A stretch of 64,000 bases of DNA from Microthrixaceae bacterium (GTDB lineage Bacteria; Actinomycetota; Acidimicrobiia; Acidimicrobiales; Microtrichaceae): positions 1 through 64,000 of the forward strand of contig JAIBBP010000178.1 in the NCBI GenBank assembly GCA_019694615.1. The letters run 5' to 3'. The notes beneath the pieces were generated by a model, which worked only from the letters and a program-made list of their open reading frames with translations, did no database searches and was not told where the DNA came from. Positions 10,815-36,914 of the stretch are shown one piece after another (position 1 is the stretch's first letter; the number at the start of each line of letters is the position of its first letter). The position numbers were made by a program, and so were the translations under genes.

Positions 10815-10835
10815 CCCAGCTACCGACATGACCCA

Positions 10836-10893
10836 GCTCGTTCTGTCCTGCGAGAGCACCACCCGGGTGGTGCTCTCGCAGGACAGAACGAGC
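10836..10893. terminator. Perfect 58-bp palindrome between convergent genes (hairpin B)
   Basis: Two 29-bp arms (10836-10864 and 10865-10893) are exact reverse complements with no spacer; the centre is CCC/GGG. The left arm starts GCTCGTTCTGTCCTGCGAGA. The identical 58 bp recur at 22878-22935. It lies between the convergent thioredoxin gene and ftsH, so bidirectional termination is plausible, although no U-tract follows. A 10-bp direct repeat, TGACCCAGCT, occurs at 10812-10821 and 10829-10838 beside it. Confidence 0.75.
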
Positions 10894-10908
10894 ATGGCGG
10901 GGTCGGCG

Positions 10909-22853: not shown

Positions 22854-22869
22854 GCTGAGTCGGGTCCTT

Positions 22870-22943
22870 CTCCCTCTGCTCGTTCTGTCCTGCGAGAGCA
22901 CCACCCGGGTGGTGCTCTCGCAGGACAGAACGAGCAGAGGGAG
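22870..22943. terminator. Perfect 74-bp palindrome downstream of ahcY (hairpin C)
   Basis: Arms of 37 bp (22870-22906 and 22907-22943) are exact reverse complements with no spacer. The inner 58 bp (22878-22935) are identical to hairpin B. The outer 8 bp per arm (CTCCCTCT/AGAGGGAG) are unique to this copy yet also pair perfectly. It lies 16 nt after the ahcY stop and 100 nt before a lipoprotein gene on the same strand, so it could end the ahcY transcript. There is no U-tract. Confidence 0.7.
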
Positions 22944-23043
22944 CGGGTTGGCGGGAAATGAATGGCGACAGAGGGGCCAACTCGTCGTACCATCGGGTAC
23001 TCGCTGCCGGCTGGGGTGGCGTCGAGATTGCTGGGAGATGCTC

Positions 23044-32188: not shown

Positions 32189-32264
32189 CCCACCCCAGCC
32201 GGTTCTGTTGTACAAAGCGCGCGGTCACGCGCGCGCTTTGTACAACAGAACGGGCTGGGGTGGG
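32189..32264. terminator. Long hairpin between convergent ftsX and azlD (hairpin D)
   Basis: Arms 32189-32223 and 32230-32264 pair over 35 bp with one mismatch (32201 with 32252) around a 6-nt loop. The inner arm reads GTTCTGTTGTACAAAGCGCG. The outer part pairs CACCCCAGCC with GGCTGGGGTG. It separates the convergent ends of ftsX and azlD and could terminate both, though no U-tract follows. The inner arm is homologous to hairpin F with compensatory substitutions. Confidence 0.75.
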
Positions 32265-33317: not shown

Positions 33318-34220
33318 ATGTCCGACTTCGCCACCATCCGTTACGACGTTTCCGAGGGCATCTGCACGGTCACCCTGAGCCGTCCCGATCAGCTCAACGC
33401 ATTCAACATCCCGATGATGCGGGAACTCATCGAGGCCTTCGATCGCATTGACGCCGATGACGACGTTCGCGTGGTGATCGTGACGGGCTCGGGCCGGGCG
33501 TTCTGTGCCGGCGCCGACCTCGCGTCCGGTTCAGGCTCGTTCGACTACGACGGGCCAGTATCCAACGACGAGACGGCAGAGTTCGAAGGTGCGGTGGGAG
33601 GGCGAGCGAAGGGCCAACCGCTTCGCGACGCTGGAGGGATCCTGACGCTCCGCATCTTCCGCTGCCGCAAGCCGGTGATCGCCGCGATCAACGGACATGC
33701 CGTTGGGATCGGTGCGACGATGACACTCCCGATGGACATCCGACTCGCGTCGGTAGAAGCGAAGATCGGGTTCGTGTTCGCCGCGCGCGGCATCGTGCCC
33801 GAGGCGTGTTCGAGCTGGTTCCTACCCCGTCTCGTCGGGATCTCCCAGGCAGCCGAGTGGATCTACACGTCGCGCGTGTTCCTTGCCGCGGAGGGTCGTG
33901 AGCGCGGGCTGATCCGCTCGGTGCACGACCCCGACGAGCTCATGCCCGCGGCCCGCGAGTTGGCGACCGAGATCGTCGTGAACTCGGCGCCGGTTTCGGT
34001 GGCGCTCAGTCGAATGATGCTCTGGCGAATGCTCGGCGCGTCACATCCAATGGATGCGCACCGGATCGACAGCCGGGCGGTTCACTTCACCGGGGCGAAA
34101 CCCGACGCACGCGAAGGCATCGGCGCCTTCTTCGAGAAGAGGCAACCACACTGGTCGATGAGCGTGAGCGACGACTTGCCTGACTTCGTGCCGTGGTGGG
34201 ACGAGCCGACCTTCAGTTGA
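33318..34220 (+). CDS. Enoyl-CoA hydratase/isomerase family protein (crotonase fold)
   Basis: This 300-residue crotonase superfamily protein has SRPDQLNAFNIPMM, the first oxyanion-hole segment GSGRAFCAGADLASGSG, and the second NGHAVGIGATMTLPMDIR. GIVPEACSSWFLPRLVG carries a Glu at the usual catalytic region. The family hydrates 2-enoyl-CoA or performs related acyl-CoA reactions. No other fatty-acid genes are adjacent, so the substrate cannot be assigned. Length and motifs are complete. Confidence 0.88.
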   Translation: MSDFATIRYDVSEGICTVTLSRPDQLNAFNIPMMRELIEAFDRIDADDDVRVVIVTGSGRAFCAGADLASGSGSFDYDGPVSNDETAEFEGAVGGRAKGQPLRDAGGILTLRIFRCRKPVIAAINGHAVGIGATMTLPMDIRLASVEAKIGFVFAARGIVPEACSSWFLPRLVGISQAAEWIYTSRVFLAAEGRERGLIRSVHDPDELMPAARELATEIVVNSAPVSVALSRMMLWRMLGASHPMDAHRIDSRAVHFTGAKPDAREGIGAFFEKRQPHWSMSVSDDLPDFVPWWDEPTFS

Positions 34221-34244
34221 TCGTCGGCCGGCCGGGTCGGCCGG

Positions 34245-34802
34245 TCACGGCTTCCACTTGATGTTGCAACCGAGGCTCGGGTGTTGGTCGTCGGCCGGCG
34301 AGCTCCCTGCGAGTAACGCATCAACCGCTGCCTTGAGGTCGGAGCCAGTTACGGGCACATCGTTGGACGGTCGGGAACCATCGAACTGTCCGCGGTAGGC
34401 GAGCCGGCGTTGACCGTCGAACACGAAGAGGTCGGGAGTGCACGCTGCGCTGTAGGCACGTGCGACGTCCTGGCTCTCGTCGTAGAGGTAGTGGAAGTCC
34501 CAGCCGTAGGAGCGGGCGGTGCTCGCCATCAGCGGCGGGGCATCGTCGGGGTACGCGGCGACGTCGTTGGACATGATGCCGACGACCGCTGTGCCACGAG
34601 CCAGGAACCGCTGAGTTACGAGACCCAACTCGCGCCCGATGTGTTTCACGTAGGGGCAGTGGTTGGAGAGGAACATCACCACCAGCGCGGGTGCGCTCCC
34701 GGCGATGTCGTCCAAGGTGTGCAGCGCCCCGTCGGGGTCGGGGAGCGCGAAATCCGGCGCGGGAGTGCCGAGCGGCAACATGGCGGAGGGAGTGGCGACC
34801 AT
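34245..34802 (-). CDS. AhpC/TSA-type redoxin (thioredoxin-like) protein
   Basis: This encodes about 185 residues. The thioredoxin fold begins at LGTPAPDFALPDPDG. The active-site region is FLSNHCPYVKHIGREL, with a single peroxidatic-type Cys, and the C-terminal CNIKWK motif is characteristic of this redoxin subgroup. CTPDLFVFD is the cis-proline segment. The start at 34802 lies 7 nt after TAGTTT on the minus strand, a leaderless arrangement. A longer frame to 34931 runs through the adjacent hairpin and is not credible. The peroxide or thiol substrate is unknown. Confidence 0.82.
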   Translation of the reverse strand: MVATPSAMLPLGTPAPDFALPDPDGALHTLDDIAGSAPALVVMFLSNHCPYVKHIGRELGLVTQRFLARGTAVVGIMSNDVAAYPDDAPPLMASTARSYGWDFHYLYDESQDVARAYSAACTPDLFVFDGQRRLAYRGQFDGSRPSNDVPVTGSDLKAAVDALLAGSSPADDQHPSLGCNIKWKP

Positions 34803-34809
34803 GGACGTC

Positions 34810-34815
34810 AAACTA
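34810..34815 (-). promoter_or_regulatory. Leaderless-type -10 element of the redoxin gene
   Basis: TAGTTT on the minus strand ends 7 nt before the ATG at 34802. A -35 element at normal spacing would fall near 34833-34838, at the edge of hairpin E. Confidence 0.4.
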
Positions 34816-34835
34816 CCTCCGGGCCCCCTTCCACC

Positions 34836-34887
34836 GGTTCTGTGTTGCGAGGCCGCCCCTCCAGGGGCGGCCTCGCAACACAGAACC
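34836..34887. repeat. Long hairpin between two divergent promoters (hairpin E)
   Basis: Arms 34836-34860 and 34863-34887 pair perfectly over 25 bp around a 2-nt loop; three more pairs follow after one mismatch. The left arm begins GGTTCTGTGTTGCGAGGCCG. It lies between the divergent redoxin and DUF2207 genes, upstream of both -10 elements, so it would not be transcribed from either promoter and cannot end either transcript. The outer GTTCTGT/ACAGAAC matches hairpins B, C, D and F. Confidence 0.75.
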
Positions 34888-34903
34888 AGTGAGGCGTCGC
34901 CGG

Positions 34904-34909
34904 TAGCCT
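34904..34909 (+). promoter_or_regulatory. Leaderless-type -10 element of the DUF2207 gene
   Basis: TAGCCT ends 9 nt before the ATG at 34919. The matching -35 position (about 34881-34886, CAGAAC) falls inside the right arm of hairpin E. Confidence 0.4.
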
Positions 34910-34918
34910 GACGGCGCG

Positions 34919-36829
34919 ATGGCCCGAACACGCTTTGTCCTACTCGTCGTTTCCGTGATCGTGGTGTTCGTCGGTGGAGCTCGTTCCGTTTCGGCGTCTC
35001 CGAACCAGAGCGGCTTCGAACGCATCGACTCGTTCGATTCGACGATCACCGTCAACCGCGACGGGTCGGCGGACATCACCGAGGTCATCGCCTATGACTT
35101 CGGGTCGGCGAGTCGACACGGCATCGAGCGGTTCATCCCGACGGTGTTTCCGTGGAGCGGCAAGCTGCCCGACGACGCGTCGCCGGGAGCCCAGTACGAC
35201 CGTGTCACGCCGATCTCCGACGTGAGCGTGTCGGCGAGCACCGGAACGCCGGCAGACGTCGAGGAGTCCCACGAGAACGGCGTGACCAGGCTTCGCATCG
35301 GCGATCCCGACCGGACGATCACCGGTGCACACACCTACACGATCCGATATCGGATCGCAGGGGTTCTGAACGCGTTCGAAGGCCACGACGAGCTCTACCT
35401 GAACGTCTCTGGCAACGAGTGGCGGGTGCCGTTCTCAGAGTTGACCGCCACGGTGAAGGCGCCGGGAGCGATCTCACGAATCGCGTGCTTCGCCGGACCC
35501 GCGGGGTCTCAACTCCCCTGTGAGTCGTCGACCAAGAACGACAGTTCGACTGGCGGCGTGGCGACGTTCCGCCAGGACGCAGTGTCCGCCTTCGAAGGTC
35601 TGACAGTGGTCGTGGCGTTCCCGAAGGGCGTCGTCGAGGATCCCGAGTCGACCCGAATCCTACGCGAGCGGTGGTCGATCTCCTCGGCGTTTCGACTGAA
35701 CGCCGCGACCGGTTCCGCAGCGGGCGCGGTGCTGTTGGGCGGGGTCGGGCTCGTCGGTCTTCTCGGTTATCGGGTTGGGCGGGATCGGCGCTACCGCGGC
35801 AGCGTCGTTGACGCGGCGTTCGGCAACGACTCCGGGGACGAGGGTCGTATCCCGCTGTTCGACAGGCCCGGCGATACCGTTGAGTTCGTCCCGCCGGAGG
35901 GCGTTCGGCCTGGACACATGGGAACCCTGTGGGACGAGCAGGCCAACCACCTCGACGTGTCGGCGATGATCGTCGACTTGGCTGTTCGTGGCTGGATCCG
36001 GATCGACGAGATCGCGCCGCAGTCCGACGGATTCCTCGGGTTCGGCGGGGACAGCGGCGATTTCCAGCTCGTTCAGCTCCGTGATCCCGACACCGACCCA
36101 CTCGCCTCGGAGCTCTGGCAGGCCGAACGCACGCTGCTGTCGTCGTTGTTCGCCACGGGCGACGTGGTGAAGCTCTCTGCGCTCAAGACGAAGTTCGCAT
36201 CCAAGATGCAGATCATCCAAGGCCACCTCTATGACGACGCCGTCGAGGCTGGGTGGTTTCCGGCGCGTCCCGACACGATTCGGGGCCGTTGGGCAGGTCG
36301 CGGGTTTCTGCTCCTCCTGCTCGGGGGAGGGATCGTCGTGCTCGCTGCGAAGTTCACCCACCTCGGTCTTGTTGCGCTCCCGATTCCGCTGTTGGGACTC
36401 GTTCTCATGGGGTGCGCGAAGTACTTCCCGCACCGGACGGCGAAGGGGTCAGCGTTGCTCGGGAGGGTGCGAGGCTTCAAGGAGTTGTTCGAGGCGGGCG
36501 AAGGCGAGCGGCAGCGGTTTGCCGAACAGCACAACCTCTTTGCCCAGTACCTGCCGTACGCCATCGTCTTCGGGTGTACAGACAAATGGGCCGAGACGTT
36601 CGCCGATCTCGGCCTCAGTCCTCAGGAGATGGGCCTCGGCGTGTGGTACACGAGCCCCTACGGTTACGACCCGATTCACTTCGGCTATGCGATGGGCTCG
36701 TTCACGACGTACTCGTCGGGGTCCCTGGCGGCCGCAGCCCCGTCCTCGTCCGGTGGATCGGGCGGGTCAGGTTTCAGCGGAGGGTCCAGCGGAGGCGGGT
36801 TCGGCGGTGGTGGCGGGGGCTCCTGGTAG
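34919..36829 (+). CDS. DUF2207 family membrane protein
   Basis: This 636-residue protein is built as follows: a signal peptide (LLVVSVIVVFVGGARSVSAS); an extracellular beta-rich DUF2207 domain (FDSTITVNRDGSADITEVIAYDF-type opening, RHGIERFIPTVFPW); a helix (GAVLLGGVGLVGLLGY); a cytoplasmic domain with DVSAMIVDLAVRGWIRI; two helices (GFLLLLLGGGIVVLAA and GLVALPIPLLGLVLMG); the motif LLGRVRGFKELFE; and a Gly/Ser-rich tail ending in GGGGGSW. These match the widespread DUF2207 proteins of unknown function. The gene stands alone, with long hairpins on both sides. Confidence 0.85.
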   Translation: MARTRFVLLVVSVIVVFVGGARSVSASPNQSGFERIDSFDSTITVNRDGSADITEVIAYDFGSASRHGIERFIPTVFPWSGKLPDDASPGAQYDRVTPISDVSVSASTGTPADVEESHENGVTRLRIGDPDRTITGAHTYTIRYRIAGVLNAFEGHDELYLNVSGNEWRVPFSELTATVKAPGAISRIACFAGPAGSQLPCESSTKNDSSTGGVATFRQDAVSAFEGLTVVVAFPKGVVEDPESTRILRERWSISSAFRLNAATGSAAGAVLLGGVGLVGLLGYRVGRDRRYRGSVVDAAFGNDSGDEGRIPLFDRPGDTVEFVPPEGVRPGHMGTLWDEQANHLDVSAMIVDLAVRGWIRIDEIAPQSDGFLGFGGDSGDFQLVQLRDPDTDPLASELWQAERTLLSSLFATGDVVKLSALKTKFASKMQIIQGHLYDDAVEAGWFPARPDTIRGRWAGRGFLLLLLGGGIVVLAAKFTHLGLVALPIPLLGLVLMGCAKYFPHRTAKGSALLGRVRGFKELFEAGEGERQRFAEQHNLFAQYLPYAIVFGCTDKWAETFADLGLSPQEMGLGVWYTSPYGYDPIHFGYAMGSFTTYSSGSLAAAAPSSSGGSGGSGFSGGSSGGGFGGGGGGSW

Positions 36830-36834
36830 CGACG

Positions 36835-36914
36835 ACCCACCCACAACCTGTTCTGTTGTATGAAGCGCGCGGCTGGGCGCGCGCTTCATACAACAGAACA
36901 GGTTGTGGGTGGGT
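36835..36914. repeat. Long hairpin between DUF2207 and mscR genes (hairpin F)
   Basis: Arms 36835-36871 and 36878-36914 pair perfectly over 37 bp around a 6-nt loop (GCTGGG). The inner arm reads GTTCTGTTGTATGAAGCGCG, the same as hairpin D except CA to TG, with the matching TG to CA on the other arm. It starts 5 nt after the DUF2207 stop and could end that transcript. It also abuts a possible CAGGCT -10 element (36918-36923) for mscR. Confidence 0.75.

Follow-up and report, generated by a model that had tools for sequence, protein, structure and literature searches.

The 50-bp palindrome at positions 34837-34886 of the window, by which we mean the whole 64,000-nucleotide stretch of Microthrixaceae DNA analyzed here, belongs to a dispersed palindrome family, members of which also bracket genes for a putative nuclease. 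We consider it probable that this copy, which lies between divergent genes for a redoxin and a DUF2207 membrane protein, is a solitary, non-autonomous member of subfamily D, the offspring or relic of palindrome-bounded nuclease elements. Few bacterial repeats are as common as dispersed palindromes, for which the RAYT/HUH transposase is the only dedicated partner that we found documented. If our reading is correct, the units described below would be a second, independent solution to the REP/RAYT role, and would give a role to some actinobacterial AbiEi-DUF559 genes. The subfamily-matched link to a nuclease would then offer a testable enzyme-substrate pair and may explain orphan AbiEi-DUF559 genes, and the family would illustrate how a selfish hairpin can become a transcript-boundary element.

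The initial annotation had reported a long hairpin between the two genes, and the hairpin is indeed present: its arms (34832-34860 and 34863-34891) are 97% complementary, and within them lies a core that begins with GTTCTGT, ends with ACAGAAC and has 24 of 25 positions paired (Table 1). Folded as RNA, the palindrome reaches -65.5 kcal/mol on the forward and -71 kcal/mol on the reverse strand (z-scores of -9.3 and -9.8), values that no shuffled sequence equaled. It lies upstream of the putative -10 elements of both genes, so that, as had been argued from its position, neither gene's own transcript can be terminated there. Because no sigma70 -35/-10 pair between redoxin and DUF2207 passed a consensus scan, the promoters are proposed from the TANNNT elements by themselves; near-leaderless and partly conserved promoters are plausible for both genes, with DUF2207 preceded by GCCGGTAACCT, 7 nt and an ATG in genome G008, and TATGGT found about 8 nt ahead of the redoxin ATG in genome G022.

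Table 1. Positions of the palindromes, neighboring genes and putative promoter elements in the window
Feature	Position	Strand	Remarks
Palindrome core, subfamily D	34837..34886	.	24 paired positions, 2-nt centre
Core with outer, imperfectly paired flank (CACCG/CAGTG)	34832..34891	.	
Redoxin / AhpC-TSA family gene	34245..34802	-	Pfam AhpC-TSA/Redoxin; ATG at 34802; start MVA..MLPLGTPAP kept in G022
DUF2207 membrane protein gene	34919..36829	+	ATG at 34919
Enoyl-CoA hydratase gene (echA)	33318..34220	+	Convergent with redoxin
Putative -10 of redoxin gene, TAGTTT	34810..34815	-	Near-leaderless; ends 7 nt before ATG; TANNNT in G022 orthologue
Putative -10 of DUF2207 gene, TAGCCT	34904..34909	+	Near-leaderless; ends 9 nt before ATG; GGTAACCT in G008 orthologue
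Subfamily A copy	36835..36914	.	5 nt past DUF2207 stop; 37-bp stem
Subfamily A copy	32189..32264	.	Between convergent ftsX and azlD
Subfamily B copy	22866..22947	.	Tandem genes, 12 nt past stop codon
Subfamily B copy	10832..10897	.	Between convergent genes

A search of the genome with the pattern GTTCTGT-N{20,50}-ACAGAAC returned at least 167 palindromes; all copies listed were exactly 50 nt long (GTTCTGT-N36-ACAGAAC), and a reversed-pattern control returned none. They fall into at least 4 subfamilies, which have the ends in common and differ inside: A (TTGTACAAAGCGCGCG), B (CCTGCGAGAGCACCACCC), C (CCCGCGAATCTTCAGG) and D (GATGCGAGGCCGCCCCT). The GTTCTGT/ACAGAAC ends, which the initial annotation had singled out, proved to be the most conserved parts of the hairpin and common to all subfamilies. 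The core at 34837-34886 follows subfamily D with one compensated pair, T-A in place of A-T at position 9, and D-like places in the genome number 32. Five palindrome copies lie within the window, of which the one directly past DUF2207 is probably the hairpin that had earlier been labeled F and placed beside a possible promoter. Beyond this genome, the pattern occurs in 26 of 61 relatives, nearly all from the same family and each with its own inner sequence. Matches in named genomes came mostly from one Microthrixaceae genome, and a scan of named genomes with the subfamily D sequence gave no match, the window's own genome possibly lying outside that scan. A known RNA family was rejected, as solely sub-threshold matches to microRNA-type hairpins were returned, which are artefacts of the long stems. 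The genomes are mostly metagenome-assembled and incomplete (that of the window is 89% complete), and contigs often end at palindromes, so that short-read assemblies probably understate the copy number; contigs of G021 (L201, L173, L185, L171 and L203), for example, often stop at or near one. We also noted other long hairpins, about 50 nt in length but with different ends (GTTTTGTTCTGCGAACG.. and GGTTTTCGTTCGAGAACC..; L021 1589, L048 15884 and L029 9688), which are probably further subfamilies, and, at 1656-1700 of the window, a near-perfect 20-22-bp hairpin between tandem genes (TTTGTGGTCACGAAGCGACC..) that lacks the GTTCTGT ends.

The position of 107 copies was determined relative to genes called with a home-made gene finder in 1.27 Mb of sequence, a sample partly picked around known copies, which should leave the class proportions unaffected: the flanking genes are convergent for 40 copies, tandem for 40 and divergent for 8, while 5 copies are at contig or stretch ends and 14 overlap predicted genes. 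Compared with the counts of gaps of at least 50 bp, this placement is far from random (chi-square p = 3e-12). A stop codon lies at most 37 nt away in 78 of the 80 convergent or tandem copies (median 17 nt), and palindromes are similarly placed at 3' ends in G004 and in the SJ36 genome. In other words, most family members are stop-codon-proximal hairpins, as terminators would be, but the copy at 34837-34886 lies between two gene starts. Some of the gene overlaps are gene-calling errors, and a few copies are in frame inside protein genes: a B copy contributes 17 residues to a variable linker of both an isochorismate synthase (L031) and a CaiB-type CoA-transferase (L021), and homologues of the two proteins lack the insert. 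Rickettsia palindromic elements (RPEs) likewise occur both between genes and, in frame, within protein genes. The Microthrixaceae family resembles them in its in-frame copies, with these two well-supported cases, and differs in the shorter length of its copies (50 bp), in their mostly intergenic position at stop codons and in having a candidate partner gene.

The congeners G010 and G021 have several palindrome loci in common, at which the core is intact and the neighboring sequence contains many indels. At two of these loci, a G-C pair has become C-G through changes in both arms (L195/L200 and, with another pair, L192/L171); such compensatory changes would be compatible with selection for pairing as well as with templated repair from one arm to the other. 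At one orthologous locus the loop is inverted, CTTTTG in L194 2001 versus CAAAAG in L201 2001, which is what recombination between the arms or resolution of a cruciform would produce. No solitary palindrome insertion was caught against a clean empty site, the flanks in G021 being too diverged or the contigs ending at palindromes, and no target duplication was seen at the palindromes.

The link to a nuclease comes from a 1165-bp block of G010, in which one gene has a palindrome on one side and half of one on the other, and in place of which G021 has 17 bp; this presence/absence difference may reflect gain or loss of a unit, the ends of which are approximate. Two genes in the genome of the window, each lying between a palindrome pair, are homologous to the gene of this block. 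Searching that genome with a profile of these three genes gave four close homologues (E ≤ 1e-114, with 1e-19 for the following match), none of them within the window itself and all four bracketed by matching palindromes: B-B (C218), A-A (C39), D-D (C72) and E-E (C148), the last being a fifth type. These palindrome-nuclease-palindrome units are about 1.1 kb long (1075-1131 bp for the four, 1075-1166 bp overall). Three distant nuclease homologues in the same genome, which served as controls, lack such palindrome pairs, and among about eight other single genes between two copies, the types matched in just two when read by eye. For subfamily C, no cognate nuclease was found in the 89%-complete genome, and no partner nuclease gene was found on plasmids. 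Paired copies also enclose genes other than that of the nuclease, namely a glycosyltransferase-like gene between D copies (L106 5241 and 6874) and a DJ-1-like gene between B copies (L042 189 and 956).

Matching pairs with other palindrome sequences bracket the nuclease gene in further genomes, among them several other genera: G004 (two genes), G008 (two genes), G002, G031, G015, G009, G020 and G056, which is from outside the family; in G004, G008 and G002, the bracketing palindrome is also the dispersed one. One clear side or unequal pairs were found in G010, G014, G016, G022, G024, G033, G037, G042 and G046. No matched palindromes flank the homologue of G034; in G001, where there are 17 palindromes, none could be detected beside the strong homologue, and G021 has nine palindromes with no nuclease match. 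A strong homologue is present in 10 of the 12 genomes with at least 4 GTTCTGT palindromes versus 4 of the 21 others (p = 6e-4, indicative only as the genomes are related), and the four exceptions among the latter have palindromes with other ends. In addition, a second, short palindrome, GGGGGAYRTCCCCC(ATA), follows the 5' palindrome and precedes the start of the nuclease gene in each of the four units from the window's genome (L061 6666; L030 8231; L253; L254). It is also found in G008a, and GGGGATCGGTCCCC-like versions occur in the G004 units; searching the 1.27-Mb sample with GGGGGAYGTCCCCC returned solely the two units sampled there. This element is a likely candidate operator.

The N-terminal half of the nuclease matches AbiEi models in 18 of 18 proteins (PF13338 in 7), and the C-terminal half matches REase_MTES_1575 (PF18741) in 16 of 18 and DUF559 in 12 of 18 at E ≤ 0.01, the first member scoring below the curated cut-off. 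Its nearest solved chain is the endonuclease-like 3hrl (E = 0.0003), followed by weak matches to the mobile-intron endonuclease 3r3p and the mismatch endonuclease 1cw0 (the three spanning E-values of 0.0003 to 0.5). Residues E205, D235, E246, H253 and D262 are invariant, in an arrangement that we take to resemble the EDxHD layout of the Vsr-like and homing endonuclease group. The profile matches and conserved acidic residues would place the partner protein among the PD-(D/E)XK / Vsr-like nucleases. It shares weak profile similarity and the conserved E, D, E, H and D with Vsr-like and EDxHD homing endonucleases (3r3p, 3hrl, 1cw0), but it is fused to an AbiEi-like winged helix, bracketed by palindromes and located outside introns and inteins. 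Similarly, its N-terminal half is like the AbiEi antitoxins of type IV toxin-antitoxin systems, but the unit is a single-gene one of about 1.1 kb, the C-terminus is a nuclease, and no partner toxin lies inside.

The closest parallel to this organization is found in REP/REPIN sequences and their RAYTs, in which dispersed palindromes lie mostly near 3' ends, between convergent or tandem genes and in some cases in genes, and bracket their cognate nuclease (PMC3733652, PMC3116915). The Microthrixaceae palindromes are likewise dispersed in the genome and bracket a cognate nuclease gene, but the enzyme is unrelated: the partner is an AbiEi-like protein with a DUF559/REase_MTES_1575 nuclease, the palindrome is a single one of fixed length (49-50 bp), and its ends are GTTCTGT/ACAGAAC, with no GTAG/CGTC tag. 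The Y1/HUH transposase (PF01797) was absent from all 33 Microthrixaceae genomes searched and detected in five controls. Membership of the REP/RAYT system was rejected on account of the missing transposase and tag. As the unit architecture repeats that of REP/RAYT, we read the solitary palindromes as non-autonomous members of the family. The parent element would be about 1.1 kb long and consist of a palindrome, an upstream region, the gene for an AbiEi-like winged helix joined to a DUF559/REase_MTES_1575 nuclease, and a second palindrome. The nuclease probably recognizes its own palindrome as a duplex, cruciform or single-strand hairpin, for which the conserved GTTCTGT ends and the subfamily-specific inside would provide the basis, and its cutting would let the palindrome be copied or inserted elsewhere. 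Solitary palindromes could come from direct copying or be produced when the two ends of a unit recombine, and would persist mainly just past stop codons, where they do the least harm and are probably useful as two-way barriers or 3'-end hairpins. Whether such units, with one AbiEi-like/DUF559-fold nuclease spreading its own boundary palindromes, form a class of mobile element not described so far is in our estimation an evenly balanced question; our search of the open-access literature turned up no paper that connects DUF559 to palindromic repeats.

The stop-codon placement, and the compensatory changes that keep pairing at orthologous sites while flanks diverge, would also suit an explanation that we consider unlikely, in which the palindromes serve the host alone, as bidirectional terminators or 3'-end stabilizers homogenized by gene conversion, and nuclease genes just happen to use them; the bracketing could then mean that the nuclease gene is merely insulated by terminators. 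Palindromes at transcript boundaries may indeed act as two-way barriers or 3'-end hairpins, and the long hairpins with few Us are like the terminators of Streptomyces (PMC12207403). However, stems across the family are preceded by C-rich and followed by G-rich sequence, with no U-tract, which mycobacterial RNA polymerase is reported to need according to work cited in PMC10937400; a preference for G-U over A-C on the sense strand, sought as a sign of RNA function, gave no signal (9 versus 8); and neither the in-frame copies nor the bracketing of all four nuclease genes by matched subfamilies would be expected. Stem-loop repeat families also occupy intergenic gaps (PMC2267715, PMC12207403), from which, as from U-poor actinobacterial terminators, the Microthrixaceae palindrome family differs in its defined 50-bp sequence and its partner gene. 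A DNA uptake signal arranged as inverted pairs has next to no chance of being correct: in Neisseria and Pasteurellaceae, terminator hairpins are indeed built from inverted uptake signals (PMC2267715), but GTTCTGT outside palindromes occurs 84 times against 88 expected, and the idea was rejected for this lack of an excess of single sites. The absence of half sites likewise led us to reject an autonomous insertion sequence with palindrome halves at its ends.

The initial annotation had proposed a function tied to this promoter pair, such as an insulator, a cruciform switch or an operator, which our results do not support. The exact placement between two conserved TANNNT elements favors such a role, as do the seven other copies between divergent genes, the over-representation of subfamily D among divergent copies (6 of 30 versus 2 of 58, p = 0.017), and a copy at L105 774 that also lies between two near-leaderless TAGNCT promoters. 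However, the palindrome is a copy from a dispersed family in which divergent placements are a small minority (8 of 88), and the orthologous loci of G008 and G022 both lack the 50-mer, which makes a locus-specific function very improbable. In G022, redoxin and DUF2207 are divergent across a gap of about 70 bp with a short hairpin (8-bp stem), and in G008, echA is directly followed by DUF2207, with no redoxin between them. Without the 50-mer, the redoxin-DUF2207 gap measures 66 bp, and the 50-mer therefore appears to have been added to a compact promoter gap, in which the solitary subfamily D copy would have landed or survived. There it is a possible two-way transcription barrier, for instance against echA read-through across redoxin, which would reach the palindrome, or against bleed-through between the promoters. 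At this locus (33318-34802), redoxin stands between echA and DUF2207, and G022 has an apparent remnant of the 3' end of echA before redoxin.
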